Of a stretch of DNA of 41,063 nt, positions 6,091-38,753 are shown in pieces. Positions within the stretch are counted from its first letter, which is position 1. The number at the start of each line of letters is the position of its first letter. The notes under the pieces were generated by a model, which saw only the letters and a list, made by a program, of their open reading frames with translations, searched no databases and was not told the DNA's origin. Location of the stretch: the IMG/VR virus record IMGVR_UViG_3300027985_000501, positions 1 to 41,063 of that record; one strand, given 5' to 3'. Origin of the DNA: a virus. Both the position numbers and the translations under genes were made by a program.

Positions 6091-6864
6091 ATGACCGAAG
6101 CAATGCTGACCGAAGCCGAGACGCCGGCGACTGCGACCGAAACGCCCGCCGCCTGGTACCCGGACGAATACAAGGGCCTCGTCGAGGCCAAGGGATGGGC
6201 GAGCCCGGCCGACGCGCTGTCGAGCTACCACAGCCTCGAGAAGATGCGCGGCGTTCCGGCCGAGCGGCTGGTGACGCTGCCCGAGGGGGCGACCGGCGAC
6301 GAGGCCCTCAAGGCGGTGGCGCAGGCGCGCGGGCTCCTGCCCGAGGCCGCCGACAAATACACGAACAAGCTCGGCGAGGGCATGGCGGATGGCTTCTATT
6401 CGGCCGCGGCCGAGAAGGCGCTCGCTCTCGGGCTGACCGATGCGCAGTTCGGCGGCATGCAGGAAATGCTCGTCGGCACCGTGGCTCAGGTCAAGCAGGC
6501 GGAGGCCGCACGCGTTGACGCCGCGTTCGAGACCTGGAGCAGCGCGCACCCGGACGCGGTGACGCAGGTCAAGGCCATGCTCACGTCGGTTCAGGCGGAT
6601 GAGGCATCGGTTGCCGCGGCGCTCTCGGGCGACAAGGCGGCGCTGTTCGATCTCCTCGGCAAGGTGGCGGCGCGCGGCGCGGAGCGTGGTCTGGTGGCCA
6701 GCGATGCGACGGACACATCCCTCAGCAGCGCCAAGGCGGAAATCGCCCGTCTCCGGGCCGATCGGGATTTCATCGCACAGCAGACCTCGAGCAATGCGCA
6801 GGTCAAGCGCGCGGCCGACGAGCGGCTCGAAAAGCTCTACAAGATGGCGTATCCCGAAAGGTGA
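6091..6864 (+). CDS. Capsid scaffolding protein
   Basis: A 257-residue, acidic, Ala/Glu-rich protein with no membrane segment. The N-terminus carries a Pro/Thr/Glu-rich stretch and then a conserved-looking YPDEYKGLVEAKGWASPADALSSYHSLEKM, followed by long helices and a basic C-terminal end (AADERLEKLYKMAYPER). This arrangement (disordered start, helical middle, basic helix at the end for coat binding) is typical of podovirus scaffolds. It sits just before the coat gene, apart from the antisense island. The start follows a GGAG site (ggaggagtaaccc). The function is inferred from composition and position. Confidence 0.8.
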   Translation: MTEAMLTEAETPATATETPAAWYPDEYKGLVEAKGWASPADALSSYHSLEKMRGVPAERLVTLPEGATGDEALKAVAQARGLLPEAADKYTNKLGEGMADGFYSAAAEKALALGLTDAQFGGMQEMLVGTVAQVKQAEAARVDAAFETWSSAHPDAVTQVKAMLTSVQADEASVAAALSGDKAALFDLLGKVAARGAERGLVASDATDTSLSSAKAEIARLRADRDFIAQQTSSNAQVKRAADERLEKLYKMAYPER

Positions 6865-6865
6865 A

Positions 6866-6885
6866 AGGGGCGCATTAGCGCCCCT
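6866..6885. terminator. Hairpin between convergent scaffold and antisense-island genes
   Basis: A perfect 8-bp stem (AGGGGCGC / GCGCCCCT) with an ATTA loop lies just after the scaffold stop, and its loop contains the stop codon of the leftward gene at 6875. Each strand gives the same stem, so it can act in both directions. There is no clear T-run, so full rho-independent termination is uncertain. Confidence 0.5.
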
Positions 6886-7012
6886 CAACCTGCTCGATAT
6901 AGCCCACCTCGCGGCCGAAAAAAGACGCCTTTCCGTCATCATGCAAGAGGTAGAACATGAGACCGATAGCCGTCCACAGGCCGAGATTGAAACCGATCGT
7001 AAAGCCGTTCAT
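6875..7012 (-). CDS. Small membrane protein (45 residues)
   Basis: The start at 7012 is chosen because a GGAGG site lies 8 bases upstream; a longer form of the frame has no such site. The N-terminus (MNGFTIGFNLGLWTAIGLMFYLL) is a single likely transmembrane segment followed by a charged tail (HDDGKASFFGREVGYIEQVEGR). It is the last gene of a four-gene leftward island embedded in the rightward structural block. Its start overlaps the stop of the gene before it (ATGA). The function is unknown. Small one-span proteins in such islands can act on host membranes or lysis, but nothing here shows which. Confidence 0.65.
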   Translation of the reverse strand: MNGFTIGFNLGLWTAIGLMFYLLHDDGKASFFGREVGYIEQVEGR

Positions 7013-10077: not shown

Positions 10078-12305
10078 GTGCATCTCCCGCCCTTGCGGCG
10101 CTCAACGCGGGCGTCTGGTCGCCCGACATCGAGGGCCGTATCGACATTGAGGGCTACGCGGCTTCGTGCTCGGAAATGGTCAACTTCCTCTGCACCGTGC
10201 AGGGGCCGGTGAAGCGGCGCGGCGGCACGCAGTTCGTGAACGAGGTCGAGGACAGCGCGAACCGATCGTGGCTTGTCCCTTTCGTCCGCAACCGCGAGAC
10301 GGCCTATGTCGTGGAATTTGCCGACAACGTGTGCCGGTTCTACGTCGACCGGGCCGTGGTGACGAGCGGCGGTTCGCCCTATGAGATCGCCAGCCCATAT
10401 GCCGCTAGCGACCTTGTGGACGCGGACGGGCATTTCATGCTGTCCGTGGTGCAGGACCTCGACAACCTCTACATCGCGCATCGCTCTGGCGAGTTCCCGC
10501 TTTACGTGCTGGCCCGGACCTCCAGCACGTCCTGGTCTTTCAGCCCCGTGACGCTATACGGAGGACCGTGGGGCGACTACAACACGGACTCAGCCAAGAC
10601 CATCTACGCCTCGGGCACCGCCGGGTCCGTGACCCTTACCGCGGGCGTTGCGACCTTCTCTGCCTCGGATGTCGGGCGCCGCCTGTGGCTCGAGTTGGAC
10701 AGCGACGAGACCTCTGCGTGGCAGGCCGACACGGGCGTGAACACTAACGACATCCGGCGCGCGGGCAAGCGATACTACCAGTCGCAGGAGACGGACACCA
10801 CCGGCACGACCGAGCCGACACACACTCATGGGACGCAGCATGACGGGGGGGTGATCTGGCGTTTCTGGGCGACCAGCTACGCCATATTCGAGATCACCGG
10901 GTACACCAACTCCACGACCGTCACGGCGGATGTGAAGCGTGGCGACCTGTGGCGCAGTAGCCGCGTTCCTCCAGGCCTTACATCCTCTTCGACCGCATCC
11001 GACCGGTGGCGCTGGGGCGCATGGGACGAGATCAGCGGGTATCCGACCGTGCTTTCCTTCTTCCGGCAGCGCCTTGTGGCCGCCATGGGCTCGCGCCTGG
11101 ACTTCTCATGGGTGGGCGACCCGACCGTGTTTTCCCCGTTCGACTTCGGGGAGACGACGGACGAAGTTGCCTTCAACATCGCCCTGCAGAGCCGGGAGAC
11201 CGATGACATCGTTGGCCTTACCGAGGGCGCGTCCCTGCTAGTCCATACCGAAGGCGGCGAGATTACGGTGGGTGTCCAGACGGACAGCGAACCGTTTTCG
11301 ACCACGAACAAGACCTATTCGACCGGCACGAACTATGGCGCCGAGCCTGTTACGCCGACCCGCGCGGGCACGTCCGCGCTCTTTGTGGAGGCGGGCGGCC
11401 GGTCCCTGCGCGCTGCCGAATACAGCGTAGAGAGCGACGGGCTTGTGGCGGCGGATGTCACCCTGCGCGCCTCGCATCTGACCGAAATGTCGCAACTTCT
11501 CGGCATCGCCCTTCAGCGCCGGCCGCAGCCATTCCTCTGGGCGCGGATCGGCGACGGGCTCGCGGCTCTGACCTATGACCAGACGAGCAACGCGCGGGGC
11601 TGGTCCACGGCTCAGATCGCTGGGGCGGATGCGGTCGAGAGTATCGCCATTGTCCCCGGGCCATCGCAAGTTGACGATGACGTGTATCTCATCGTGCGGC
11701 GCACGATCGACGGCAACACCGTGCGGTATATTGAAGTCGTGACGCCGCCTTGGGCGCCGGCCGACGCGCAGGAAGACGCGACGTATTTCGACAGCCATCT
11801 CGTCTACGATGGCGCGGCGGCCACGACCATTTCCGGCCTTGACCATCTGGAAGGCGAGGAGGTCCACATCCTCGCGAATGGCGCCTACCACCCGCCCCGC
11901 ACCGTAAGCGGGGGCGAGATCACGCTCGACCGGTCCACGACCAAGGCGTGCATTGGGCTACAGGCGCCCGCGTGGTTCATCACCGCGCGGATGGAGGCTG
12001 GTGCCCGCGATGGCACGGCGCAGGGCAAGACCAAGCGGATACCCGATGTCATGGCCCGCGTGCGCAACACGCGCGGCGGCTACATGGGCCCGGACCTGCA
12101 AACGCTCGACCCGGTGCCGGATCTGAACTGGCGCGATCCCGCCACGCCAATGGGTGACCCGGACCCGCTCTATTCTGGCGATGCGCTGCTGCCATGGCCG
12201 GGCGGCTACGAGACAGACGGAAGGATGGCGTTCTATGTCGATGGTGGCTTCCCCGCAACCGTGGTGGCTCTTTTCCCGCAAGTCTCTACATCCGAAGCGC
12301 GGTAG
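10071..12305 (+). CDS. Tail tubular protein B (T7 gp12-like nozzle)
   Basis: A 744-residue protein; the ATG at 10071 overlaps the previous stop. Family features include the N-terminal LNAGVWSPDIEGRIDIEGYAASC, NFLCTVQGPVKRRGGTQFV, the YVVEFADNVCRFYVD strand and a long beta-rich body (FFRQRLVAAMGSRLDFSWVGD). These match gp12-type nozzle proteins, which close the tail tube and hold the fibres. The length matches the family (T7 gp12 is 794 residues). It is followed after one base by the GNAT-like gene. A longer upstream frame from 10017 overlaps tail tubular A and is not used. Confidence 0.93.
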   Translation: MVSASPALAALNAGVWSPDIEGRIDIEGYAASCSEMVNFLCTVQGPVKRRGGTQFVNEVEDSANRSWLVPFVRNRETAYVVEFADNVCRFYVDRAVVTSGGSPYEIASPYAASDLVDADGHFMLSVVQDLDNLYIAHRSGEFPLYVLARTSSTSWSFSPVTLYGGPWGDYNTDSAKTIYASGTAGSVTLTAGVATFSASDVGRRLWLELDSDETSAWQADTGVNTNDIRRAGKRYYQSQETDTTGTTEPTHTHGTQHDGGVIWRFWATSYAIFEITGYTNSTTVTADVKRGDLWRSSRVPPGLTSSSTASDRWRWGAWDEISGYPTVLSFFRQRLVAAMGSRLDFSWVGDPTVFSPFDFGETTDEVAFNIALQSRETDDIVGLTEGASLLVHTEGGEITVGVQTDSEPFSTTNKTYSTGTNYGAEPVTPTRAGTSALFVEAGGRSLRAAEYSVESDGLVAADVTLRASHLTEMSQLLGIALQRRPQPFLWARIGDGLAALTYDQTSNARGWSTAQIAGADAVESIAIVPGPSQVDDDVYLIVRRTIDGNTVRYIEVVTPPWAPADAQEDATYFDSHLVYDGAAATTISGLDHLEGEEVHILANGAYHPPRTVSGGEITLDRSTTKACIGLQAPAWFITARMEAGARDGTAQGKTKRIPDVMARVRNTRGGYMGPDLQTLDPVPDLNWRDPATPMGDPDPLYSGDALLPWPGGYETDGRMAFYVDGGFPATVVALFPQVSTSEAR

Positions 12306-12306
12306 C

Positions 12307-12738
12307 GTGCGGGTCACGCCGCTGCCCCGCAGTGACGATGTGTGGCGGGCCCTGCAGGCGCTCCCCGCGATCCCCGAGGACACAGGCACATGCCTGGGCG
12401 ACGCGCCGGTCGATCTTTATGGCCATGCGTGGGCCATGCTGGTGGATGGGGCCCCAATCGCGGTCGGCGGTATCGAGCCTGACGAGGGAGACGCGGCCGA
12501 GGCGTGGCTTGTGCCCGGTGCCGATCTGCGCCCCTACGCCGCCGACCTTATCCGGTCCGTGCGGGTGGCGCTCTCCCGAGCGCCATACCGGCGCATCACC
12601 GCGCATGTCATGACCGATGGTTTCGCGCGCGGGCATCGGTTCGCCCTATCACTCGGGTTTTCTCTTGTCAACCCACGGGTTCCGTGCTATCATCCGTCCG
12701 GGGCCGACATGTCCCTTTACGTCTTGAAGAAGGATTGA
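12307..12738 (+). CDS. GNAT-fold internal virion protein (T7 gp13-like)
   Basis: A 143-residue protein with a GTG start just after the gp12 stop. It shows a GNAT-like arrangement: acetyl-CoA domain strands (AWAMLVDGAPIAVGGI), an AYAADLIRS helix, and a C-terminal helix plus strand (MTDGFARGHRFALSLGFSL). The T7 gp13 internal protein also has this fold and is thought to help assembly of internal proteins. The position between gp12 and the gp14-like gene is the T7 order. No ribosome site is evident, so translation may be coupled to the upstream stop. Confidence 0.75.
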   Translation: MRVTPLPRSDDVWRALQALPAIPEDTGTCLGDAPVDLYGHAWAMLVDGAPIAVGGIEPDEGDAAEAWLVPGADLRPYAADLIRSVRVALSRAPYRRITAHVMTDGFARGHRFALSLGFSLVNPRVPCYHPSGADMSLYVLKKD

Positions 12739-26204: not shown

Positions 26205-27083
26205 TCATTCCTCTGATCCTTCCGCGTAATACCTATATCCACTCCCGGCCTCCGCGTCAAGCGGCAGCCCGGCGGCCCAACCCGGGACGCGCTCCATCTC
26301 GGCTTTCAACCGGGCGGCGGCCGTCTCAGCGTGGCGGGCCTCGCACTCCTGCACGATCTCATCGTGCGTGTGCGCGACTGTCCAGGCGAGGGATGTGTCG
26401 TCCTCGAGCCGAACGAGCTTCTCCCGGAGGATGGACGCGGCGGCCCCCTGCGTGCAGTTCTCGATCATGGCGCCCCGCCATAGCGCCGTGCGGCCATAGG
26501 TCGCGTGCGTGTAGACGAGTGTCGGCTCAGGCTGCCCCTCGAAACGCTCTACCGTCTCGATACGCATCGTCGGATAGACGAGCGGCCGGCCGCATGGGAG
26601 GAAGACGAGCAGCGAACCCCCGAACAGGCCGCCGTGATAGACGACAGTGCAGCGCCCGGCCGGGAAGAACTTGCCGGGCTCGCCAATGGCGTTGAAGGCC
26701 GCGCGCTCGAGGGCCGCCCCGAAAGCTTGCGCCCATGGGTTAGCCTCGCGCCACCGGGCGACTATCTGCTTGCCTTCATGCTCTGGAAACATGGACACGC
26801 CATAGTTGCGGGCCATGGCGTTCAGCGCGCCGATGCCGCCGAGGAAGCCAAGCGAGAGCACGGGCACCTTGCCGAGAGACTGGCGGCGCGGATCGTTCTT
26901 GTCGGTAACAGGCTCCCCCGCGATATCCGAGGCGCAGGAGAGATATACATCTTCGCCCCGCTCGAACATGCCGAGGAGGCGCAGGATGCTCTCGTCCGCC
27001 TGCGGTGTGCAGCCCCAAGCCAGCCAGGGGGCCATGCGCGCCTCGATGGCCGACCAGTCGCACCAGACGAGGCGCTTACTCAT
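26205..27083 (-). CDS. DNA polymerase family A, C-terminal (palm) gene of a split polymerase
   Basis: A 292-residue protein with the catalytic motifs of family A polymerases: motif A CDWSAIEARMAPWLA (Asp 9), motif B RRQSLGKVPVLSLGFLGGIGALNAMAR (the GKVxxLxLGYxGG variant of many phage polymerases) and motif C HTHDEIV (Asp 241). It begins one residue before motif A, so it lacks exonuclease and thumb, which are in the upstream gene (27243-28457). Together the two make a full polymerase with nothing missing. The ATG overlaps the stop of the small gene between them. Subunits are expected to assemble. Confidence 0.9.
   Translation of the reverse strand: MSKRLVWCDWSAIEARMAPWLAWGCTPQADESILRLLGMFERGEDVYLSCASDIAGEPVTDKNDPRRQSLGKVPVLSLGFLGGIGALNAMARNYGVSMFPEHEGKQIVARWREANPWAQAFGAALERAAFNAIGEPGKFFPAGRCTVVYHGGLFGGSLLVFLPCGRPLVYPTMRIETVERFEGQPEPTLVYTHATYGRTALWRGAMIENCTQGAAASILREKLVRLEDDTSLAWTVAHTHDEIVQECEARHAETAAARLKAEMERVPGWAAGLPLDAEAGSGYRYYAEGSEE
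26232..26260 (-). promoter_or_regulatory. Internal promoter for the lysis and nuclease genes
   Basis: On the minus strand TTGACG (26260-26255) and TATAGG (26237-26232) are exactly 17 bases apart, inside the 3' end of the polymerase gene. It would start transcription just before the CxxC gene and lead into the VRR-NUC and lysis genes, allowing separate timing of lysis. Confidence 0.5.
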
Positions 27084-27241
27084 CTCTCCCCTGCCCATAT
27101 TTCGCCCGCCACCCCGATAGCGCCCCCGACCACCATCACGGCTAGCGCCCCCGCCCACTCGCCGCGAACGATCATGGTCGTGGCCAGAGATACCTCGCAC
27201 AAATCGAACCAGGTATACCGGGGCCTGAATATGCGTTTCAT
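27080..27241 (-). CDS. Small membrane protein between the two polymerase halves
   Basis: A 53-residue protein (MKRIFRPRYTWFDLCEVSLA...) with a basic N-terminus and a hydrophobic, Gly/Val/Ala-rich segment (AGALAVMVVGGAIGVAGEIWAG) that likely crosses the membrane. The ATG follows GGGAG with 7-base spacing, and the stop overlaps the polymerase C start. It begins one base after the stop of the N-terminal polymerase gene. Its placement between polymerase parts is exceptional. It might anchor the enzyme at the membrane or be an inserted gene that split the polymerase. No family recognised. Confidence 0.65.
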   Translation of the reverse strand: MKRIFRPRYTWFDLCEVSLATTMIVRGEWAGALAVMVVGGAIGVAGEIWAGER

Positions 27242-27242
27242 A

Positions 27243-28457
27243 TCAATCTCCCGCCGTGATTGTCGTGCGGAGAAGCTTTGACATCTCCGCCAAGGTGCAT
27301 GCGGCCTTCTGAGCTTCCGGCACAGAGCCTTTGACCTTGGCGCGAACCAAGTTGTGCGGCTGGAGCCCGCCGGCCGTGTAGCGCCCTGTCTGCTGCGCTC
27401 CGCCGAAAACATACATGCCGCGCAGGCGGCCGTCCTTGCTGGCGCGGGCTATGGCCGCTGCATATTTGGCCGTAGCCGCGGCGGCGCCCTCCTCCATGAG
27501 GTCCAACATGTCAACGACGTGCGCGATATCTTCTGCCTGCGGGTGCTCGAGCAGGCGCTCCCGCCATTCCCGCCGCGTCGCCCGGTCAAAGCACGGGCGC
27601 TCCTCCGTGTAGAAGCCAACGCCATCGGAGCGCCGCTTCTTGAATTGCTTGGTGACGTGTTCGTCTTCGGCCAGCAATCCCGCCCGGCTCAACTCCAGCT
27701 CGAACCACTGGCGTGCGGCGGCCGACTGTTTGGGCGTCTGCACCGCGCCGAAGGTCAGGTATTCCAGCTCCGCCGACACTTCGGCCCCGACCTCGGCCAC
27801 GCGGGAAACCGCTTCCCGGCACCAGTCCAGATCGACACGCACGCCGCGCCGGTTGATGGTCTCGGACACCTCGTATTCCCGCCAAATGCGCTCTGGCAGG
27901 GTCGGGAATAGGCGGAGTTGTCGGCGCATTTCCTCGACGTCCATGTCGCCATAGACGAGCATTTCCTCATAGAGCGCCTGGAATGCATCGGTGTCTGGGA
28001 TGGCCTCGTCCTCATCGCGGATTTTCCACAGCGGGTGGAACGTCTTGTTCGGGAGTTTGGCGCCGCCCGTCGCCTTGGCTACCGCGCCGAGCGCGCCGGG
28101 TAGGTTGAGCGCCCGGCACACCACGGCGCTGTCACGGAGCTGGCCGGGGCGCAGGTGGGGGAAGTCGTATCGCTCGGCGCAGGCGTTCCAGATGGTGAAG
28201 TCGAAGGCAGCGTTGTGCGCCCAGCCGCGGGCGCCATCCTCGATTGCGTCGAGCAGGTCGGCGAACGCCTCATTGATCTGCTCGTCATCCTGCGGCCCGG
28301 GCGCGAACGCGCCCCGCCAGTGCGACACCGGCCCGTCGTCGAAAGCGAAGTGCGCCGACAGAATGCGCAGCGTCGGGTCTTCTGCCATGGCATAGACGCC
28401 GACCTTCTTGACGTCCGCCCGGCTGCGCGTCTCCAGGTCCAGGAAGAATTCAGTCAT
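27243..28457 (-). CDS. DNA polymerase family A, N-terminal exonuclease/thumb gene of a split polymerase
   Basis: A 404-residue protein. The 3'-5' exonuclease shows FLDLETRS (Asp 7, Glu 9), AHNAAFDFTIW (Exo II) and VYGDMDVEEMRRQL (Exo III). After that comes the thumb/fingers segment ending in FGGAQQTGRYTAGGLQPHNLVRAK and LLRTTITAGD, which in intact phage polymerases runs straight into motif A. Motif A begins in the separate gene 26205-27083. So the polymerase is split at that exact point. The start overlaps the NUMOD gene end by 8 bases. Confidence 0.9.
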   Translation of the reverse strand: MTEFFLDLETRSRADVKKVGVYAMAEDPTLRILSAHFAFDDGPVSHWRGAFAPGPQDDEQINEAFADLLDAIEDGARGWAHNAAFDFTIWNACAERYDFPHLRPGQLRDSAVVCRALNLPGALGAVAKATGGAKLPNKTFHPLWKIRDEDEAIPDTDAFQALYEEMLVYGDMDVEEMRRQLRLFPTLPERIWREYEVSETINRRGVRVDLDWCREAVSRVAEVGAEVSAELEYLTFGAVQTPKQSAAARQWFELELSRAGLLAEDEHVTKQFKKRRSDGVGFYTEERPCFDRATRREWRERLLEHPQAEDIAHVVDMLDLMEEGAAAATAKYAAAIARASKDGRLRGMYVFGGAQQTGRYTAGGLQPHNLVRAKVKGSVPEAQKAACTLAEMSKLLRTTITAGD

Positions 28458-30334: not shown

Positions 30335-31933
30335 GCGGCGAATTTCCCTCAGGCGCGCCGCCTCTACCAGGACATGCCCGTCCTGCATCTTCACCTTCAC
30401 CGTTGCGGGGCAATACAGATGCGGCCATTCTGCCAACGCGCCGTCGGCCGTCTCCGCCGTGCCTCCGAACGTGCGCCAGCGGGCAATGGCGCCCGCCCGA
30501 TCCGGGCCGCCGAATTCCAGCTTCTCAGCAAGCTCCACGCCGTCCTCCACGTCGTATCGCACGATCACGCCGCCCGCGCCGTCGCCAAAAGCCCCCCACC
30601 CCCGCACTTCGACCCATCCCCGGAGCATGGGGCCGTGGGTCAGGCATTCGGCCACGGTCGGCGGAAACCAGTATCGGCACTCCGGGCACTCCTTGCTCTG
30701 CGGGGCGCAAAGCTCGTGGCACCTCGGGCATTCCTTCTCAGCTGGGGCATCGCCCGGCACGTAGATGGCGCCGCAGTGCGGGCATTTGTCCAGGTGTGCG
30801 GCGTATTCAGTGTCGCAGGTGCGGCAACAGCGGGGCGGCGTCGTCTCTATGTGCGGGTCCTCAGGCATCCCGAGCCGGGAGATGTTGCCTCCGTAGTCCA
30901 GGACAAGGCAGTCACGTTTGCCCGGCGCCAGTCGGGTCCCGCGCCCGCACATCTGGACATACAGGTTTGCAGACTTGGTGGCCCGCGCGAGAACCACCGC
31001 GTCAATTCCTCGCGCGTCGAAACCTGTCGTGGCCACGGCCACATTGATCAGAGCCGCCACCCGCCCAGCCTTGACATCCGCAACGATCTCGGCGCGTTCG
31101 GCATCGCCCGTGGTCCCAAGTAGCAGGCGCGTGCTCAGACCGCGCGCCGCCAGAAGGTCGGACATGGCCTTGGCGTGGCGCTTGCCCGATGCGAACACAA
31201 TGCGGCATTTCCGCCCGGCGGTCTTGGCCATGATGTCGTCGGCCATGGCCTCGGCGATCTGCATGGCGGCCTCGTCCAGATCGGCCTCGACGTATTCGCC
31301 CGCCCGCGTGCGGACGCTCGACAGGTCAATGGCCAGCTCGGTCGGCACCGCGACCAGAGGCGACAGGTAGCCGAGATCGGTCAGCTTGCCCATAGTGACG
31401 CGGTATGCCAGCGTGTCCGCCAGCGCGTCCGCGCCCTCGTAGAGCAGGCCATTGTCCATCCGGTATGGCGTGGCCGTCAACAGGACCACCAACTTCGCGC
31501 CCAGCGCCTCGAGCACCTTGCGGTATTGCGCGTCCTCGCGCGGCGGAATGCGGTGCGCCTCATCGACAAAAACCACGTCGCGCGGGGGCAACGCCCCCTT
31601 GGCCCGTAGGCGGGCCGCGAGCGACTGCATGGACGCCGAAATGATCGGGCTCACAATGTCCTTCGCCTTGAGCTTGGCCGAATACCGGCCGCAGTAGCCC
31701 CCGAGATCGACGACAGCCTGCGCGTTCTGCTCTACAAGCTCCGTCACGTGGGCAAGGATGGCGACCCGGTGCCCTGCTTCCTGGAAGTCCATGGCGAGCT
31801 GACCCATGATCGGGGACTTGCCGCCCCCGGTCGGGATTTCGATGAGGGGCCGGCGCGAGCCGGCTTCCACCGCATCGTGCAGCGCGTTGAGCGCATCAAT
31901 CTGGTAGTCTCGGAACTCGAAAGCCACCGTCAT
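30323..31933 (-). CDS. SF2 DEAD/DEAH-type helicase with zinc ribbons
   Basis: A 536-residue protein. Helicase motifs are in order: Q-like FRDYQIDAL, motif I PTGGGKS, Ia, motif II DEAH, motif III TATP, motif IV-V (IVFASGKRHAKAM, NVAVATTGFDARG) and motif VI QMCGRGTR. After the helicase core two Cys-x2-Cys zinc-ribbon-like segments follow (CCRTCDTEYAAHLDKCPHC and CPRCHELCAPQSKECPEC). The protein likely unwinds DNA or RNA in replication or recombination. The start overlaps the primase-helicase stop (ATGA); the last codons overlap a 21-base repeat. The zinc part is an unusual addition for a phage helicase of this size. Confidence 0.88.
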   Translation of the reverse strand: MTVAFEFRDYQIDALNALHDAVEAGSRRPLIEIPTGGGKSPIMGQLAMDFQEAGHRVAILAHVTELVEQNAQAVVDLGGYCGRYSAKLKAKDIVSPIISASMQSLAARLRAKGALPPRDVVFVDEAHRIPPREDAQYRKVLEALGAKLVVLLTATPYRMDNGLLYEGADALADTLAYRVTMGKLTDLGYLSPLVAVPTELAIDLSSVRTRAGEYVEADLDEAAMQIAEAMADDIMAKTAGRKCRIVFASGKRHAKAMSDLLAARGLSTRLLLGTTGDAERAEIVADVKAGRVAALINVAVATTGFDARGIDAVVLARATKSANLYVQMCGRGTRLAPGKRDCLVLDYGGNISRLGMPEDPHIETTPPRCCRTCDTEYAAHLDKCPHCGAIYVPGDAPAEKECPRCHELCAPQSKECPECRYWFPPTVAECLTHGPMLRGWVEVRGWGAFGDGAGGVIVRYDVEDGVELAEKLEFGGPDRAGAIARWRTFGGTAETADGALAEWPHLYCPATVKVKMQDGHVLVEAARLREIRRRRK

Positions 31934-33927
31934 CCCCCTTCAATCCGTCCGAGCACGGCCTTGCCCGCCTCGTCAACCATTGGCATTTCCGCCGCCTCCA
32001 TGAACGCCGCCCAATTCTGGCCCTTGCATACCTTGTGGGTCTTGTCGAGCTGCAGCACCTGTTGGCGAACGAGCCGTTTATAGGCCAGATCCCATCTGGC
32101 CACGGCGAGACTACCGCTTTCGCCCGGCTTTGTCCAGCGCTGTAGCATGGCGCTCCGCAGGTCGGCCTCCAGCACGCCTTCCGGGGCATCCCGCACCGCT
32201 CTGGCGATCTCGCCTGCGTCCCCGCCGATGTCGTTGCGCCACGCCTCGGCCATGGCCTCGCGCTCCTCGGCGTGCCGCAGGGTGGATACCTTGTCCTCTC
32301 CTAGCATGTGCGACTTGAACAGGAAGTGCAGTTCCTCGCCGGCTTCGCCCTCCTTCTGCTTGGTTGTAATAAGCTTTACAACCCCTTCGCCCTCGTTCTT
32401 GATCTGAAATTCGCTGTCCGTCGCCGCCCGGAGCGCGCCAGATCCGCGCGGCCGGTTCGGCGCCCCCTCGCCCGTGTGGTGCAGGACGAGGCAGGTGGCG
32501 TTAAATTCCGTCTGGAAAGTCCTCAGCGCGTTGACAAAGGCGTTCATGTCCTTCGTCGCGTTCTCGTCCCCATCCCCGAAACAGCGGGCCAGAGTATCAA
32601 ACACGATCAGCGCAGGTGGCTTCCCATGCAGGGCCAAGGCAAGCTCATAGGTCTCTACTACCAAGGCGCGCCAATCCCCTTCATCCAGCATGCGCACGGC
32701 CGGGATGCAGAAGAACGGGACCGCTGGCAGGTCAGGCGCCCATGGCGCCGGCCTGGACAGATCGACCCCCCGTTCCATGGCCCAGGCCGTGGCCCGGCGC
32801 AGAATGCCGTTGTGCCCCTCGCCCGCCAGATAGATGACCGGGCCTGGCTTCACCTGCTTGCCTGCGTATTCGGTTCCAGTCGCCACGGACAGCGCCATGT
32901 CGAGGGCCGCGTAGGTCTTTCCAACGAACGACGGGCCATACATCATGGAGAGCGAGCCCCGCTCGAACATGCCGTCGATCAGCCAGTCCATCGGTTTCGG
33001 TTCGGTCAGCCCGATGAACCGAAACCTGTCCGGCAGAGGCGGCGCCTCCGGGGCCGTCTCGGGATGAGGCGCGCTCCCGTGCTCCGTAGCTTCGCCCAGC
33101 GCCGCCCCAAGCCTCGCGATCCGGGCTATCTGATAGGCGGCGTCGGTCTTTCCTTGCAGCGCCTCCCAGCCAACCGAGGTATATGGGCTTCCTTCGACCT
33201 GGTCGCAGGTGCGCTCTGTGGCGACGGCGTCATACCCGCCCGGCCACTGGCGGGACCATTCGTGGAAGAGTTCGCGCCATTCCACATTCCCGCCGCAGGC
33301 GGCATGGAGCATCCCGCCCGTCGCCTTCCAGGTGGCGAAGTCCACCTCGGCGCCGTTCTGGATGTGCTCAAGCGCGTCCCGGACGTCATCGATGGAGGGC
33401 GCCATGAGTTCTTCTGGTGGCGGAGCCCGACGCGCCGCCACCAGAACGCGCTCGCCCAGCCATTGCGGCAGAGGGGCGATATCTGAGCCGCTTGCCACTT
33501 CATAGTGGCGGCCGCCAACAACCGAGGGAGGCGCCAGCACATACCCGCCGCGGCCACGGGTGTCGATGCCCGGGCCGAGGGCGCTTTCCGAGGTGGAACG
33601 CCCTTCGCCATCGAAGTAGAGGTGGCGGCCCCCGCTCGGGGTGCGAACCTCGTAGGTCTGGGGCGTGCCGGGAAGCGTGGCCCATGTCTCGCTCCCGGTC
33701 TTTCCGTTCTTGTCGTCCAGATCGACGACTAGCAGCCCGGAGAGGCCGGTCGCGATCCCGATGTTGTAATCGGGGTTCTTCTCCCACCACTCGCGGATGG
33801 TGTCGGGGTTAGTGGTGCTAAGCGTGAAGCCGCCCTTCACGGCAGGCGTCTTCCCGTTCGGCACGCAGGGGAAGACATGGAAGCCCGCGGCAGCATGGGC
33901 GAGGGCCGCGTCAAGGAGCGATGTCAT
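31930..33927 (-). CDS. Primase-helicase (Prim-Pol plus RepA-type ATPase)
   Basis: A 665-residue, two-domain protein. The N-terminus is a bifunctional primase-polymerase domain: IATGLSGLLVVDLDDKNG (metal-binding Asp pair), TPSGGRHLYF, GIDTRGRGGYVLAPPSV. From about residue 300 a RecA/RepA-like ATPase follows: GPSFVGKT (Walker A), VIYLAGEGHNG, LIVFDTLARCFGDGDEN (Walker B) and LVLHHTGE. It would prime and unwind at the fork. The C-terminus has a winged-helix-like segment (GEIARAVRDAPEGVLEADLRSAMLQRW). ATG 33927 has no strong ribosome site, but the preceding stop lies just upstream (TGATCATG). Confidence 0.92.
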   Translation of the reverse strand: MTSLLDAALAHAAAGFHVFPCVPNGKTPAVKGGFTLSTTNPDTIREWWEKNPDYNIGIATGLSGLLVVDLDDKNGKTGSETWATLPGTPQTYEVRTPSGGRHLYFDGEGRSTSESALGPGIDTRGRGGYVLAPPSVVGGRHYEVASGSDIAPLPQWLGERVLVAARRAPPPEELMAPSIDDVRDALEHIQNGAEVDFATWKATGGMLHAACGGNVEWRELFHEWSRQWPGGYDAVATERTCDQVEGSPYTSVGWEALQGKTDAAYQIARIARLGAALGEATEHGSAPHPETAPEAPPLPDRFRFIGLTEPKPMDWLIDGMFERGSLSMMYGPSFVGKTYAALDMALSVATGTEYAGKQVKPGPVIYLAGEGHNGILRRATAWAMERGVDLSRPAPWAPDLPAVPFFCIPAVRMLDEGDWRALVVETYELALALHGKPPALIVFDTLARCFGDGDENATKDMNAFVNALRTFQTEFNATCLVLHHTGEGAPNRPRGSGALRAATDSEFQIKNEGEGVVKLITTKQKEGEAGEELHFLFKSHMLGEDKVSTLRHAEEREAMAEAWRNDIGGDAGEIARAVRDAPEGVLEADLRSAMLQRWTKPGESGSLAVARWDLAYKRLVRQQVLQLDKTHKVCKGQNWAAFMEAAEMPMVDEAGKAVLGRIEGG

Positions 33928-34256: not shown

Positions 34257-34492
34257 CACGCTTCTCTCCATCCGTCCGGCTGCGTGGACGGCTTGCCCTC
34301 GGAGTTGCGCCCCCAGCACACACCATCGCACCAGTCAGCGGGGGGCTCAACATCATCAGCGATGGCCCACGTCTCGAAGTCACCGCCGTCCCAAACCCAT
34401 TGGATCAGGAACACCCCCTCGCCGGGGATACGGGCGAGGATGGCGCATCCATCCCGCGGCGCGGTTTCCATCGGCCGCCATTCATCGGTCAT
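34256..34492 (-). CDS. DUF551-like small protein
   Basis: A 78-residue protein that begins WRPMETAPRDGCAILARIPG, the core pattern of a small phage family (WRPIETAPxDGTxIL), with FLIQWVWDGGDFETWAI and an end GWREA. GGAGGGCG precedes ATG 34492. These proteins are common in alphaproteobacterial phages but have no proven function. Confidence 0.75.
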   Translation of the reverse strand: MTDEWRPMETAPRDGCAILARIPGEGVFLIQWVWDGGDFETWAIADDVEPPADWCDGVCWGRNSEGKPSTQPDGWREA

Positions 34493-34683
34493 GCCACGCC
34501 CTCCTTATTGTTGGCGCGATAATTCGCCCACGCCATGCGTCGGGCCATGAAGCGGTCGCAGCACGCCGGACCCTCCACCTCTCCGCGTTCCCAGCAATAC
34601 ATCTCATCGCTTTCGCGCCAGACCACCCGATACCCGGGCGGTAGTGTCTGGTTTTTGGAAAAACGGATCACGTCAATACGCAT
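34489..34683 (-). CDS. Hypothetical protein, 64 residues
   Basis: Reads MRIDVIRFSKNQTLPPGYRV and then WRESDEMYCWERGEVEGPACCDRFMARRMAW. Three cysteines and several Trp/Tyr; basic C-terminus. GGAGG site upstream; stop overlaps the DUF551-like start. Unknown function. Confidence 0.65.
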   Translation of the reverse strand: MRIDVIRFSKNQTLPPGYRVVWRESDEMYCWERGEVEGPACCDRFMARRMAWANYRANNKEGVA

Positions 34684-34780
34684 AGCTCTGGACCTCCGGC
34701 GTCACGCGCACGCAGCTACGGTCGACGGTCGCCCACCCCTCAGCCTCTTCCGCGCAACAGTCGCATCCATAGTATATCAT
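34673..34780 (-). CDS. 35-residue Cys-rich microprotein
   Basis: ATG 34780, 2 bases after the nuclease stop, reads MIYYGCDCCAEEAEGWATVD and ends SYAY. It overlaps the next gene start by 11 bases. CxCC and a later Cys suggest metal binding. The ribosome site (GGGGAT) is modest. It fills the only gap in an otherwise continuous chain of coupled genes, which supports it. Confidence 0.5.
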   Translation of the reverse strand: MIYYGCDCCAEEAEGWATVDRSCVRVTPEVQSYAY

Positions 34781-34782
34781 GG

Positions 34783-35901
34783 CTACATCCCCTGTATCTT
34801 CGCCAGCGCCTCGAGCCCGGCGCCGTTCACACGGACGGCTGGGGCCTTGTCGCTCTCCGGCGCCACCTTGAGCGCGCCCGGTGTCGTCTCAGCGAGGCCG
34901 TCGCGCAGCGGGCGCCGTTTACCGAGCCGCTTTTCGGCCTGCGCCGGGCTCACGACCTTGCGCTCCTGCCACGGGTTTACCTGATTTCCATTCAGGAAGT
35001 CAACTGCATCCTGCTCGTCCACCCACTTCCGGGCGCCCCGTCCGCGCACCAGCTTGTATCCGGGCACGTCGATGCCTCGGCCGAGCAGGTCGAGGGCCAG
35101 CTCCTCGGCGGCTGCGATGATGTCGCGGGCGTCCTGCGCCGCGTCCAGGATGGCGGGCAATGTGTCGGCAGCCGCCATGCGCTTGCGCAGCGTCTCCAGC
35201 GCCGCGGTCTTGATCGGGCAGATGACGCGGGCCGGGCACCACCGGCAGTGGTCGCCTGAGGACATCTCGTCGCGCCGGCTGTAGACCGCCCGATGCAGGG
35301 CCGTTTCGAACAGGTCGAGTTCGGCATCGGTATATACAGCCGTGTGGTCGTAGCCGAGCCGGGGCTGGACGAATGTGGCCTGATAGTAGCCATCGCCATT
35401 CCGGCCATGCTCCGCCCTCTGGGAGCACAGCAGGAACATGGCCTGAGGGTTCCCCTCGGCCGAGACAGGCACGCCGGCGCCGAATTTCCAGTCCACGATC
35501 CCGCGCAGCGTCCCGTCATCGTGCAGCGTCACCACGTCCGCCGTTCCGAAGGCGCCGTCTATCCCGGGGAAGGCGCCCCGCCGCTCGACGAAGAATTTCT
35601 CCGGGTCCAGCCGGTCGATCGCGTCCAGGCAGGGCACGATGCATTCTTCGACCAGATCCTTCGTGATCATCATGCCATAGAATTCGGAGCCTACCAGCTC
35701 GTGCGCGAACATCCCGTGAAGCAGGGCGTGCTCCACGGCCATGTGCAGGGCGGACCCCTCGGCGGCATAGGGGCTTTCAGGCGCCGGCGGGCACATCGCC
35801 GCCAGATCAATGGATCGGGGGCAAGCCAGCACGCGCTTCGCTGTGCTGGAGCCTACCACGCTGGAGTGCGCTGCTACCGCAGTGGCGGCAAGTTCAGTCA
35901 T
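34783..35901 (-). CDS. RecB-like PD-(D/E)XK nuclease (DUF2800 type)
   Basis: A 372-residue protein. Features: CPRSIDLAAMCP near the N-terminus, a SALHMAVEHALLHG helix, GIDGAFGTADVV, GIVDWKFGAG (the D-x-K catalytic core), QATFVQPRLG, and HCRWCPARVICP, a Cys cluster that together with the first Cys may bind Fe-S, as in Cas4/AddB-type nucleases. Such phage exonucleases make ssDNA for recombination. ATG 35901 has an AAGGAG site 10 bases upstream; its start overlaps the preceding gene by 8 bases. Confidence 0.88.
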   Translation of the reverse strand: MTELAATAVAAHSSVVGSSTAKRVLACPRSIDLAAMCPPAPESPYAAEGSALHMAVEHALLHGMFAHELVGSEFYGMMITKDLVEECIVPCLDAIDRLDPEKFFVERRGAFPGIDGAFGTADVVTLHDDGTLRGIVDWKFGAGVPVSAEGNPQAMFLLCSQRAEHGRNGDGYYQATFVQPRLGYDHTAVYTDAELDLFETALHRAVYSRRDEMSSGDHCRWCPARVICPIKTAALETLRKRMAAADTLPAILDAAQDARDIIAAAEELALDLLGRGIDVPGYKLVRGRGARKWVDEQDAVDFLNGNQVNPWQERKVVSPAQAEKRLGKRRPLRDGLAETTPGALKVAPESDKAPAVRVNGAGLEALAKIQGM

Positions 35902-37338: not shown

Positions 37339-37385
37339 TTGTTAACCTCCATTCAGCGCCCGGCAAGAGCGCCCGGCGTCCGAAC

Positions 37386-37414
37386 TAACTACCATCACAC
37401 TACCAACCTGTCAA
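37386..37414 (-). promoter_or_regulatory. Leftward early promoter overlapped by ACTACC repeats
   Basis: TTGACA (37414-37409, minus strand) is perfect. After 17 bases comes TAGTTA (weak -10). ACTACC copies at 37399-37404 (spacer) and 37388-37393 (overlapping -10) suggest an operator that controls the promoter. Confidence 0.55.
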
Positions 37415-37525
37415 CATTTTTCGGTGGTAGTTTCTTTGGTAGGTAACGCCCGCCCCCGCATTGCATGTTTTCAACGGCTTAGCCGCGGGCGGGGGGCATA
37501 CAACTACCTACCCAACTACCTACCC
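37388..37525. repeat. ACTACC repeat cluster including a tandem 12-mer
   Basis: Direct copies at 37388-37393 and 37399-37404, inverted copies (GGTAGT/GGTAGG) at 37426-37431 and 37438-37443, and two exact tandem copies of AACTACCTACCC at 37502-37513 and 37514-37525. The change of orientation and the tandem unit resemble iterons or operator sites for one DNA-binding protein. Confidence 0.75.
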
Positions 37526-37530
37526 GTCCC

Positions 37531-37702
37531 CTTAGATTAAGAGAGCTAAAGCTCTCTAAGCCTCCTAAGAGGCTTAGAAGAGCATAGCTCTTAGCGCTTA
37601 CGCTTAGCCGCGGGGCGGCGCTAGGGCGCCTACCGCGGCACGCGAAGCGGGCTTAATCGAGGCGGCGCTCACGCGCCGCGGATGGGGGACCAAACCCCGC
37701 GG
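37531..37702. other. Array of seven hairpins; candidate replication origin
   Basis: Stems: AGAGAGC/GCTCTCT (37540-37557), CTAAGCCTC/GAGGCTTAG (37556-37577), AAGAGC/GCTCTT (37578-37592), AGCG/CGCT (37593-37604), GGCGC/GCGCC inside CCGCGG/CCGCGG (37608-37638), GCGGCGC/GCGCCGC (37662-37679), GGGG/CCCC inside CCGCGG/CCGCGG (37676-37702). CTTAG/CTAAG recurs and allows competing folds. The first half is locally AT-richer than its surroundings. No ORF with a ribosome site is found here. Confidence 0.65.
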
Positions 37703-37716
37703 TGCGAAATTTCCTG

Positions 37717-37745
37717 TTGACCGCCGATGCGCGATGCGGTATGAA
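37717..37745 (+). promoter_or_regulatory. Rightward promoter for the 37771 gene
   Basis: TTGACC (37717-37722), 17 bases, TATGAA (37740-37745). Nearly identical to the promoters at 7637 and 29634. It lies 26 bases upstream of ATG 37771, after a clear ribosome site (AGAAGGAGAG). Confidence 0.75.
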
Positions 37746-37770: not shown

Positions 37771-38130
37771 ATGGACTGGAACAAATTCACCTACGAAGAC
37801 TTCTTGGCGGACCTTGCGGAGTTCAAGCGCGGCACTCCGGAAGGCGTCAAGGCCGACGCCGGGAAGCCCCGTCCGTCCCTGCTGTTCGCATCCATGCCCG
37901 ATGCGGTGCGGGCTGTGATCGACGTGCTCGAGCACGGGGCGCGGAAGTATGCGCCGGATAACTGGCGGCACGTTCCCGAGGCCCGTGCCCGATACCTGGA
38001 CGCCGCCTTGCGGCACATGCTGGCCCATGCGGCCGGGACGCCAGACGATGAAGACAGCGGGCTCCCGCACCTCGCCCATGCGATCTGCTCCCTGCTGTTC
38101 GTTTTGCAGTTGACAGCCGAAAGGGAATAG
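37771..38130 (+). CDS. dATP/dGTP diphosphohydrolase-like protein (DUF5664)
   Basis: A 119-residue protein. It shows GVKADAGKPRPSLL, VIDVLEHGARKYAPDNWRHVPEARARYLDAALRHMLAH and EDSGLPHLAHAICSLLFVL. These are the motifs of a phage family described as dATP/dGTP diphosphohydrolase-like (DUF5664, MazG/phosphohydrolase-like fold). It would adjust the nucleotide pools during replication. It is the first rightward gene from the control region. The coding 3' end contains the next promoter (38110-38138). Confidence 0.85.
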   Translation: MDWNKFTYEDFLADLAEFKRGTPEGVKADAGKPRPSLLFASMPDAVRAVIDVLEHGARKYAPDNWRHVPEARARYLDAALRHMLAHAAGTPDDEDSGLPHLAHAICSLLFVLQLTAERE

Positions 38131-38138
38131 ACTAGAGT
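38110..38138 (+). promoter_or_regulatory. Promoter of the terminase/late block
   Basis: TTGACA (38110-38115), 17 bases, TAGAGT (38133-38138): a perfect -35 and a 4-of-6 -10. It overlaps the end of the preceding gene and lies just upstream of a palindrome and a terminator-like hairpin, so late transcription from here may be controlled. Confidence 0.7.
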
Positions 38139-38140
38139 TC

Positions 38141-38160
38141 GAGCATGCCATGACATGCTC
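38141..38160. promoter_or_regulatory. Palindrome at the late promoter
   Basis: GAGCATG (38141-38147) and CATGCTC (38154-38160) are perfectly complementary, with CCATGA between. Placed at the expected transcription start of the late promoter, it could be an operator. One of the ATGACA motifs lies within it. Confidence 0.5.
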
Positions 38161-38205
38161 CGCCTGTCATAGCCCGGGGGTTTCCCTCCTTCCCCTCGGG
38201 TAAAC

Positions 38206-38257
38206 TGGCCCTCCTGCCTGCTCTCCATTGTCACCAGGAAGGAGGGCCAACTTTTTT
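38206..38257 (+). terminator. Terminator-like hairpin in the late leader
   Basis: TGGCCCTCCT (38206-38215) pairs with AGGAGGGCCA (38240-38249), loop 24 bases, followed by TTTTTT (38252-38257). It would end transcripts of the 37771 gene or act as an attenuator between the late promoter and the small terminase gene. Confidence 0.6.
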
Positions 38258-38321
38258 CAAACTGGCCCTTCCGCAGCGGGCGAACATGTGTCATAGGTGG
38301 GGCATGACACAGGATTTTGGC

Positions 38322-38753
38322 ATGACAAAGGCAGGACAACCCAGGAAGCGCCCGGCGCGGCCCTACGAGGGACGGCCGACGAATTATCGCCCCGAGCTTT
38401 GCGACAAGGTTATCGAAGGCGTGGACAAGTGGGGCCTGATCAGCCTCCGGGCCATTGCGGCGTACATCGAAATCCCGTCAAGCAAGCTGCGGGAATACTC
38501 TGCAGCGCACCCCGAGTTCCGAGCCGCGCTTGATTACGCGAGGGACCGTAGCGTCATGTTCTGGGAGACGAAAGGTCGTGATCCGTCATCGGGTTACAGT
38601 CCGCCGGTTGCGCTCCATGCCCTGCGGAATTCGGACCCGGAGGCGCATGACGAGTTCCTGCGGCGCGGCAAGGCGGGCGTCGTCTCGGCTCCGGTCGTTC
38701 ACGTGCACACCTCACCGGCACCTGCCCCGAAGGTCGAGACCGATGGCAAGTGA
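38322..38753 (+). CDS. Probable terminase small subunit
   Basis: A 143-residue protein. N-terminal basic tail (RKRPARPYEGRPTNYRPELCDKVIEGVDKWG), then a helix-turn-helix-like segment (SLRAIAAYIEIPSSKLREYSAAHPEFRAALDYARD), then a C-terminal variable part. This resembles small terminase proteins that recognise the packaging site. ATG 38322 is preferred (AGGA 7 bases upstream); ATG 38304 and 38286 are alternatives, the former lying inside a GTGTCAT/ATGACAC hairpin. It is not adjacent to TerL, with the spike genes between them. The nearby ATGACA repeats may be its binding sites. Confidence 0.72.
   Translation: MTKAGQPRKRPARPYEGRPTNYRPELCDKVIEGVDKWGLISLRAIAAYIEIPSSKLREYSAAHPEFRAALDYARDRSVMFWETKGRDPSSGYSPPVALHALRNSDPEAHDEFLRRGKAGVVSAPVVHVHTSPAPAPKVETDGK

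Follow-up and report, generated by a model that had tools for sequence, protein, structure and literature searches.

A candidate replication origin of two-way repeats and palindromes at the head of a phage replication operon

We propose that the gene-free segment 37380-37710 of virus record IMGVR_UViG_3300027985_000501 is the replication origin of the phage, of a displaced repeat-plus-palindrome kind tied to PrimPol/RepA-like helicase-primases (probability roughly 0.6). The proposal is based on the coincidence of three top-of-record signals (structure, repeats and AT content), on the repeat-palindrome elements that relatives of the helicase carry at the 3' end of its gene, on the annotated origin of Streptococcus thermophilus phage Sfi21, which has the same properties, on the pRN1 stem-loop, which tolerates displacement, and on two precedents for a place at the operon head. 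The stretch of DNA analyzed was the whole record of 41,063 bases, which is without terminal repeat.

Gene context and anatomy of the segment

Podovirus-like packaging and tail proteins are encoded on the + strand of the record. A leftward replication block runs from ~37.3 kb down to 22 kb and contains genes for a DUF2800 exonuclease, a PrimPol + AAA_25 helicase, a DEAD-type helicase, a nucleotidyltransferase and a family A polymerase. The DNA polymerase is split into two ORFs on the - strand (27243-28457 and 26205-27200), both matching phrog_17. The segment separates this block from a rightward gene and occupies the divergent promoter region (Table 1). A DNA similarity search of the record against known phages gave no match, a portal-based search of viral and genome contigs found no relative, and the exact hairpin pattern of the element had no match in viral_contigs.

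Table 1. Features of the candidate origin and associated genes
Feature	Position	Strand	Remark
PrimPol + AAA_25 (RepA-like) helicase	31930-33927	-	putative initiator/helicase/primase
AT-rich 60-mer	37382-37441		candidate unwinding element; overlaps promoter-like site
Repeat pair A	37384-37408	+	ACTAACTACC 37384-37393, ACTACCAACC 37399-37408
Leftward promoter-like site	37386-37414	-	TTGACA 37414-37409, weak second hexamer TAGTTA 37391-37386
Repeat pair B	37423-37445	-	GGTGGTAGT and TTGGTAGGTA, reverse orientation
GC-rich inverted repeat	37449-37493		CCCGCCCCCG / CGCGGGCGGG, includes first GGCTTAGCC
CTTAG/CTAAG cluster	37478-37607		7 copies in both orientations: 37478, 37531, 37573, 37590, 37603 (+); 37556, 37565 (-)
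Repeat pair C	37501-37524	+	perfect tandem 12-mer CAACTACCTACC x2, inverted relative to pair B
Nested palindromic fold	37527-37690		~60 pairs, 0-1 G-U; outer stem TCCCC 37527-37531 / GGGGA 37685-37689; inner stem GATTAAG 37535-37541 / CTTAATC 37652-37658
Arm P2	37542-37591		single long hairpin, or three local hairpins (37540-37557, 37555-37578, 37578-37592)
Arm P3	37595-37649		rod with CCGCGG 37608 / CCGCGG 37633
Arm P4	37662-37679		hairpin GCGGCGC TCAC GCGCCGC
Rightward promoter-like site	37717-37745	+	TTGACC-17-TATGAA, ahead of the 37771-38130 gene; read from sequence
dGTP diphosphohydrolase-like gene	37771-38130	+	dATP/dGTP diphosphohydrolase N-terminal domain

In a scan of the record by 160-nt windows, the one starting at 37521, inside the segment, had the strongest structure (z -6.5, rank 1 of 1,023), and possession of the top structured window is a property of the repeat-palindrome origin class. 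Folding of 37520-37720 gave z-scores of -6.2 and -5.9 for the + and - strands as RNA, and -6.9 with DNA parameters. The second most structured place in the record, 6841-7000 (z -5.3, AAAGGGGCGCATTAGCGCCCCT), lies directly after the stop of ORF 6091-6864 and is terminator-like. CTTAG was at the top of a record-wide repeat scan (log10 P ~-15.6) and AACTACC scored -11.0, compared with -8.0 for the best elsewhere; note that the top two-way repeat cluster of the record consists of only four AACTACC copies, and that CTTAG is just a 5-base core. All four AACTACC copies are located in 37380-37710 with none elsewhere in the record, and the CTTAG/CTAAG cluster holds seven of the record's nine copies. 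The AT-rich 60-mer, which the initial annotation did not include, is the most AT-rich of the record (40% GC vs. ~65% genome-wide). The structure, repeat and AT peaks thus coincide within ~300 bases, and we estimate that two independent peaks would fall so close together about once in a hundred times (from 500/41,063).

The dense array of hairpins and repeats that had been described here is real, as indicated by the rank of the fold and the concentration of CTTAG/CTAAG copies. ACTACC copies were found in both orientations (37388+, 37399+, 37503+, 37515+ and 37426-), together with the perfect tandem 12-mer, a 13-base direct repeat (37477/37602) and five CCGCGG palindromes (37483, 37608, 37633, 37676 and 37697). 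The CCGCGG cluster alone is not significant (~0.23 such clusters expected by chance). Five of the seven hairpins listed previously are solid (-5 to -21 kcal/mol), but two are weak (~-2). The alternative pairing of CTAAGAG with CTCTTAG does exist, but the minimum-energy fold is the single nested structure 37527-37690.

The left part of the element carries three pairs of ACTACC-type sites in the orientations (+,+), (-,-) and (+,+), and pair A sits on the leftward promoter-like site. We rate this promoter-like site as weak, since it was read from the sequence and the promoter scan did not report it. The AT-rich part and the ACTACC pairs might just as well serve as promoter and operators, which weakens the origin reading. 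The segment might then be an early/late control region with no role in replication, in which the ACTACC pairs are operators for a phage repressor acting on the early promoter that faces left, with the palindromes as additional protein-binding sites. The placement of pair A on TTGACA, with pair B just upstream, and the position of the segment between two divergent operons are consistent with such a region. However, it leaves unexplained the 164-nt nested palindrome, which is located between the promoters and not on them, and the relatives of the helicase link such elements to the replication gene. We consider a control region of this kind unlikely as the sole function; control and origin roles are compatible and can coexist.

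Strand symmetry of the palindrome and other possible functions

The fold 37527-37690 comprises 61 pairs on the + strand, a single one of them G-U, and 60 on the - strand, none of them G-U; the two strands give equal stability. The G-U share of shuffled sequences averages 8%, and was as low in 4 of 300 shuffles (+) and 0 of 300 (-), although a reduced G-U share may simply accompany high fold stability. The low G-U content and the strand symmetry favor DNA palindromes over RNA. A structured non-coding RNA (regulatory or replication-priming) transcribed from 37527-37690 would account for the z-score of -6.2 as RNA, and mycobacteriophages offer examples of prophage origins based on RNA (PMC7157519). 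Against it stand the strand symmetry and the near absence of G-U pairs, an Rfam scan of the element in which no family reached the gathering threshold, a promoter scan in which none was directed into the fold, and the absence of a clear terminator for such a transcript. We regard this RNA as quite unlikely, and the conformation-switching RNA suggested in the initial annotation is, for the same reasons, not supported.

A packaging (pac/cos) or genome-end site for the terminase is very improbable: a TerS-like gene (38286-38753) is found 600 bases downstream and the missing terminal repeat would fit, but a separate inverted ATGACA cluster at the TerS-like gene is a better candidate and the helicase-linked comparison favors replication. 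That cluster (38131-38340) runs from just before into the TerS-like ORF. It comprises two inverted ATGACA/TGTCAT pairs (38150+/38165- and 38289-/38304+) plus 38322+, and these sites surround an inverted repeat GGCCCTCCT..AGGAGGGCC, followed by AACTTTTTTC and repeated AAACTGGCCCT. It is possibly a packaging site or a terminator.

Elements associated with related helicase genes

The comparison was made via the PrimPol + AAA_25 helicase gene, whose presence in the record is a further property of the class. Loci brought in by replication genes and 79 further loci were clustered at 70% identity into 51 clusters. In 41 of the 51 (2.35 expected), the helicase gene has the best two-way 7-8-mer repeat cluster at its 3' end; for the most structured window this holds in 31 (1.94 expected). 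Scanning the loci for folds often placed the windows of strongest structure directly downstream of the PrimPol/RepA-like helicase gene; fold z-scores discriminated across loci, whereas hairpin counting did not. The elements of the relatives are built from one 7-8-base word, present in many copies and both orientations, which forms the stems. The word differs by lineage (GCGTGACA, TGGTATCA, ACTAGCGT, ACCCGCAA, ACTACAAA, CGGGACAA and others). Within the L235 family, changes in the central palindrome are paired, with 5 of 8 pairs altered on both sides and 94.6% of cells paired vs. 21-67% in slid controls, and the repeat word changes in concert (GTACCGA to CATCCGA, GCACCGA and TTACCGA).

The lineage-specific words often share a GACA core (GTGACA, GGGACA, CGGACA; loci L187, L199, L201, L144, L183, L210 and L228), as if one ancestral repeat had diverged. 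Several exceptions among the loci (L207, L224, L193 and L217) gave no clear element in the locus parts examined. The downstream gap of L197 contains CGGGACA x7; its upstream repeat was rejected as an origin because it belongs to a long tandem GGCGCCGACAAGGTT-type array (894-1374, ~15-base period) that is probably coding (pentapeptide-like repeats). A long inverted repeat in L086 (3990-4125, z ~-10), with GGCGACGAGCCGATATTTGTTGCCGCCGATATTG and its reverse complement close together, is not adjacent to any helicase relative.

With z -6.5 and a repeat score of -11, the element lies inside the range of the positive clusters. As in relatives L187, L153, L151 and L185, two-way short repeats and palindromes make up the top signal of the locus. 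However, the elements of those relatives consist of one word in 5-15 copies forming the stems at the gene 3' end, whereas 37380-37710 has two weaker words and sits where the replication operon begins, ~3.6 kb upstream of the helicase gene. At its stop the helicase gene shares four bases with the gene that follows, leaving no gap for the usual downstream element. Two relatives, L136 and L145, are likewise without a downstream element and have one at the replication operon head instead. L136 carries TACAGCA x6 around GTATCCCTATAGGGGGGATAC at 354-530, with the top z of the locus, and the stop of its helicase gene (10,649-12,631) also overlaps the next gene (gap -3). The repeats of L145 are found at 368-540, with the top z in that part of its record. 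We infer that 37380-37710 fits the same operon-head type; this step is central to the proposal and is chiefly what keeps our confidence in the origin reading from being higher.

The origin reading is further weakened because the element lacks the chief hallmark of the class, a place at the helicase gene 3' end, and because its repeats are weaker than in most relatives. GC skew, a check proposed in the initial annotation, has no turning point and did not discriminate; it is uninformative on the origin and detracts from the reading to that extent. The C-terminal region of the helicase was modeled by AlphaFold at low confidence (below pLDDT 50), which also counts against the reading, and a winged helix in this region was dropped for the same reason.

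Known origins and a proposed mechanism

The Sfi21 record annotates a replication origin, 302 bp and non-coding (34487-34784), directly after orf382. In a positive control made without using this annotation, the fold and repeat scans ranked the origin first (z -6.57 vs. -4.24 for the next elsewhere; top repeat tile). The Sfi21 PrimPol is homologous to that of the record (33% over 146 aa). Like 37380-37710, the Sfi21 origin is non-coding, is the top structure and repeat region of its genome, and belongs to a PrimPol-containing replication module. It differs in its GTAAC-type repeats and in its place directly after the helicase/primase gene, orf382, whose product is a protein of its own without detectable similarity to the helicase of the record. 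The Sfi21 origin is a phage-encoded resistance element; cloned origins of this type are characterized by replicating autonomously upon infection and by inhibiting the phage. Together with the elements of the helicase relatives, this annotated origin supports the earlier suggestion of a replication origin with structured sites.

Replication of the Sulfolobus plasmid pRN1 requires a 100-nt stem-loop that lies downstream of the PrimPol-helicase gene and still works if moved, and a stem-loop origin of this type was also proposed for Bordetella phage BIP-1 (PMC4234260). The pRN1-type origins have a poorly conserved sequence and a conserved stem, and tolerate displacement (PMC4234260); they resemble 37380-37710 as structured non-coding elements serving a PrimPol-helicase. 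However, each is a single ~100-nt stem-loop without iterons, downstream of an SF3 helicase gene, whereas 37380-37710 has a multi-branched fold, another helicase type and another place. The RepA-like helicase and the two-way repeats set the present class apart from pRN1. RSF1010 oriV combines iterons and the ssiA/ssiB hairpin priming sites with a RepA-type helicase (PMC4234260), and by description is like 37380-37710; RSF1010 uses three separate proteins and two ssi stem-loops, whereas the hairpins here are nested.

If 37380-37710 is the origin, its ACTACC and CTTAG repeats may be bound by a small early protein or by the helicase-primase, the latter through its C-terminal region, after which the AT-rich 60-mer would melt. 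The palindromes of 37527-37690 would extrude, or fold when single-stranded, into structures for loading of the ring helicase and for priming. PrimPol would then prime and the phage family A polymerase extend, and origin firing would be linked to early expression through transcripts that start at the overlapping leftward promoter. More tentatively, the element may be a displaced multi-branched origin with two repeat words, one bound by an initiator or repressor at the promoter and the other inside the 164-nt nested palindrome. It could come from a widespread, fast-evolving class whose repeat words and palindromes evolve together with the PrimPol/RepA-like helicase; we hold this fuller account possible, at somewhat less than even odds.

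Origins are known for only a minority of environmental phages, and the comparison yields a simple location rule: search the 3' end of the PrimPol/RepA-like helicase gene for a two-way repeat with a palindrome or, if the gap there is closed, search the operon head. The first half of the rule held in 41 of 51 lineages. The rule makes the origin and the specificity of its initiator directly testable, including for Sfi21-type decoy origins that interfere with phage.
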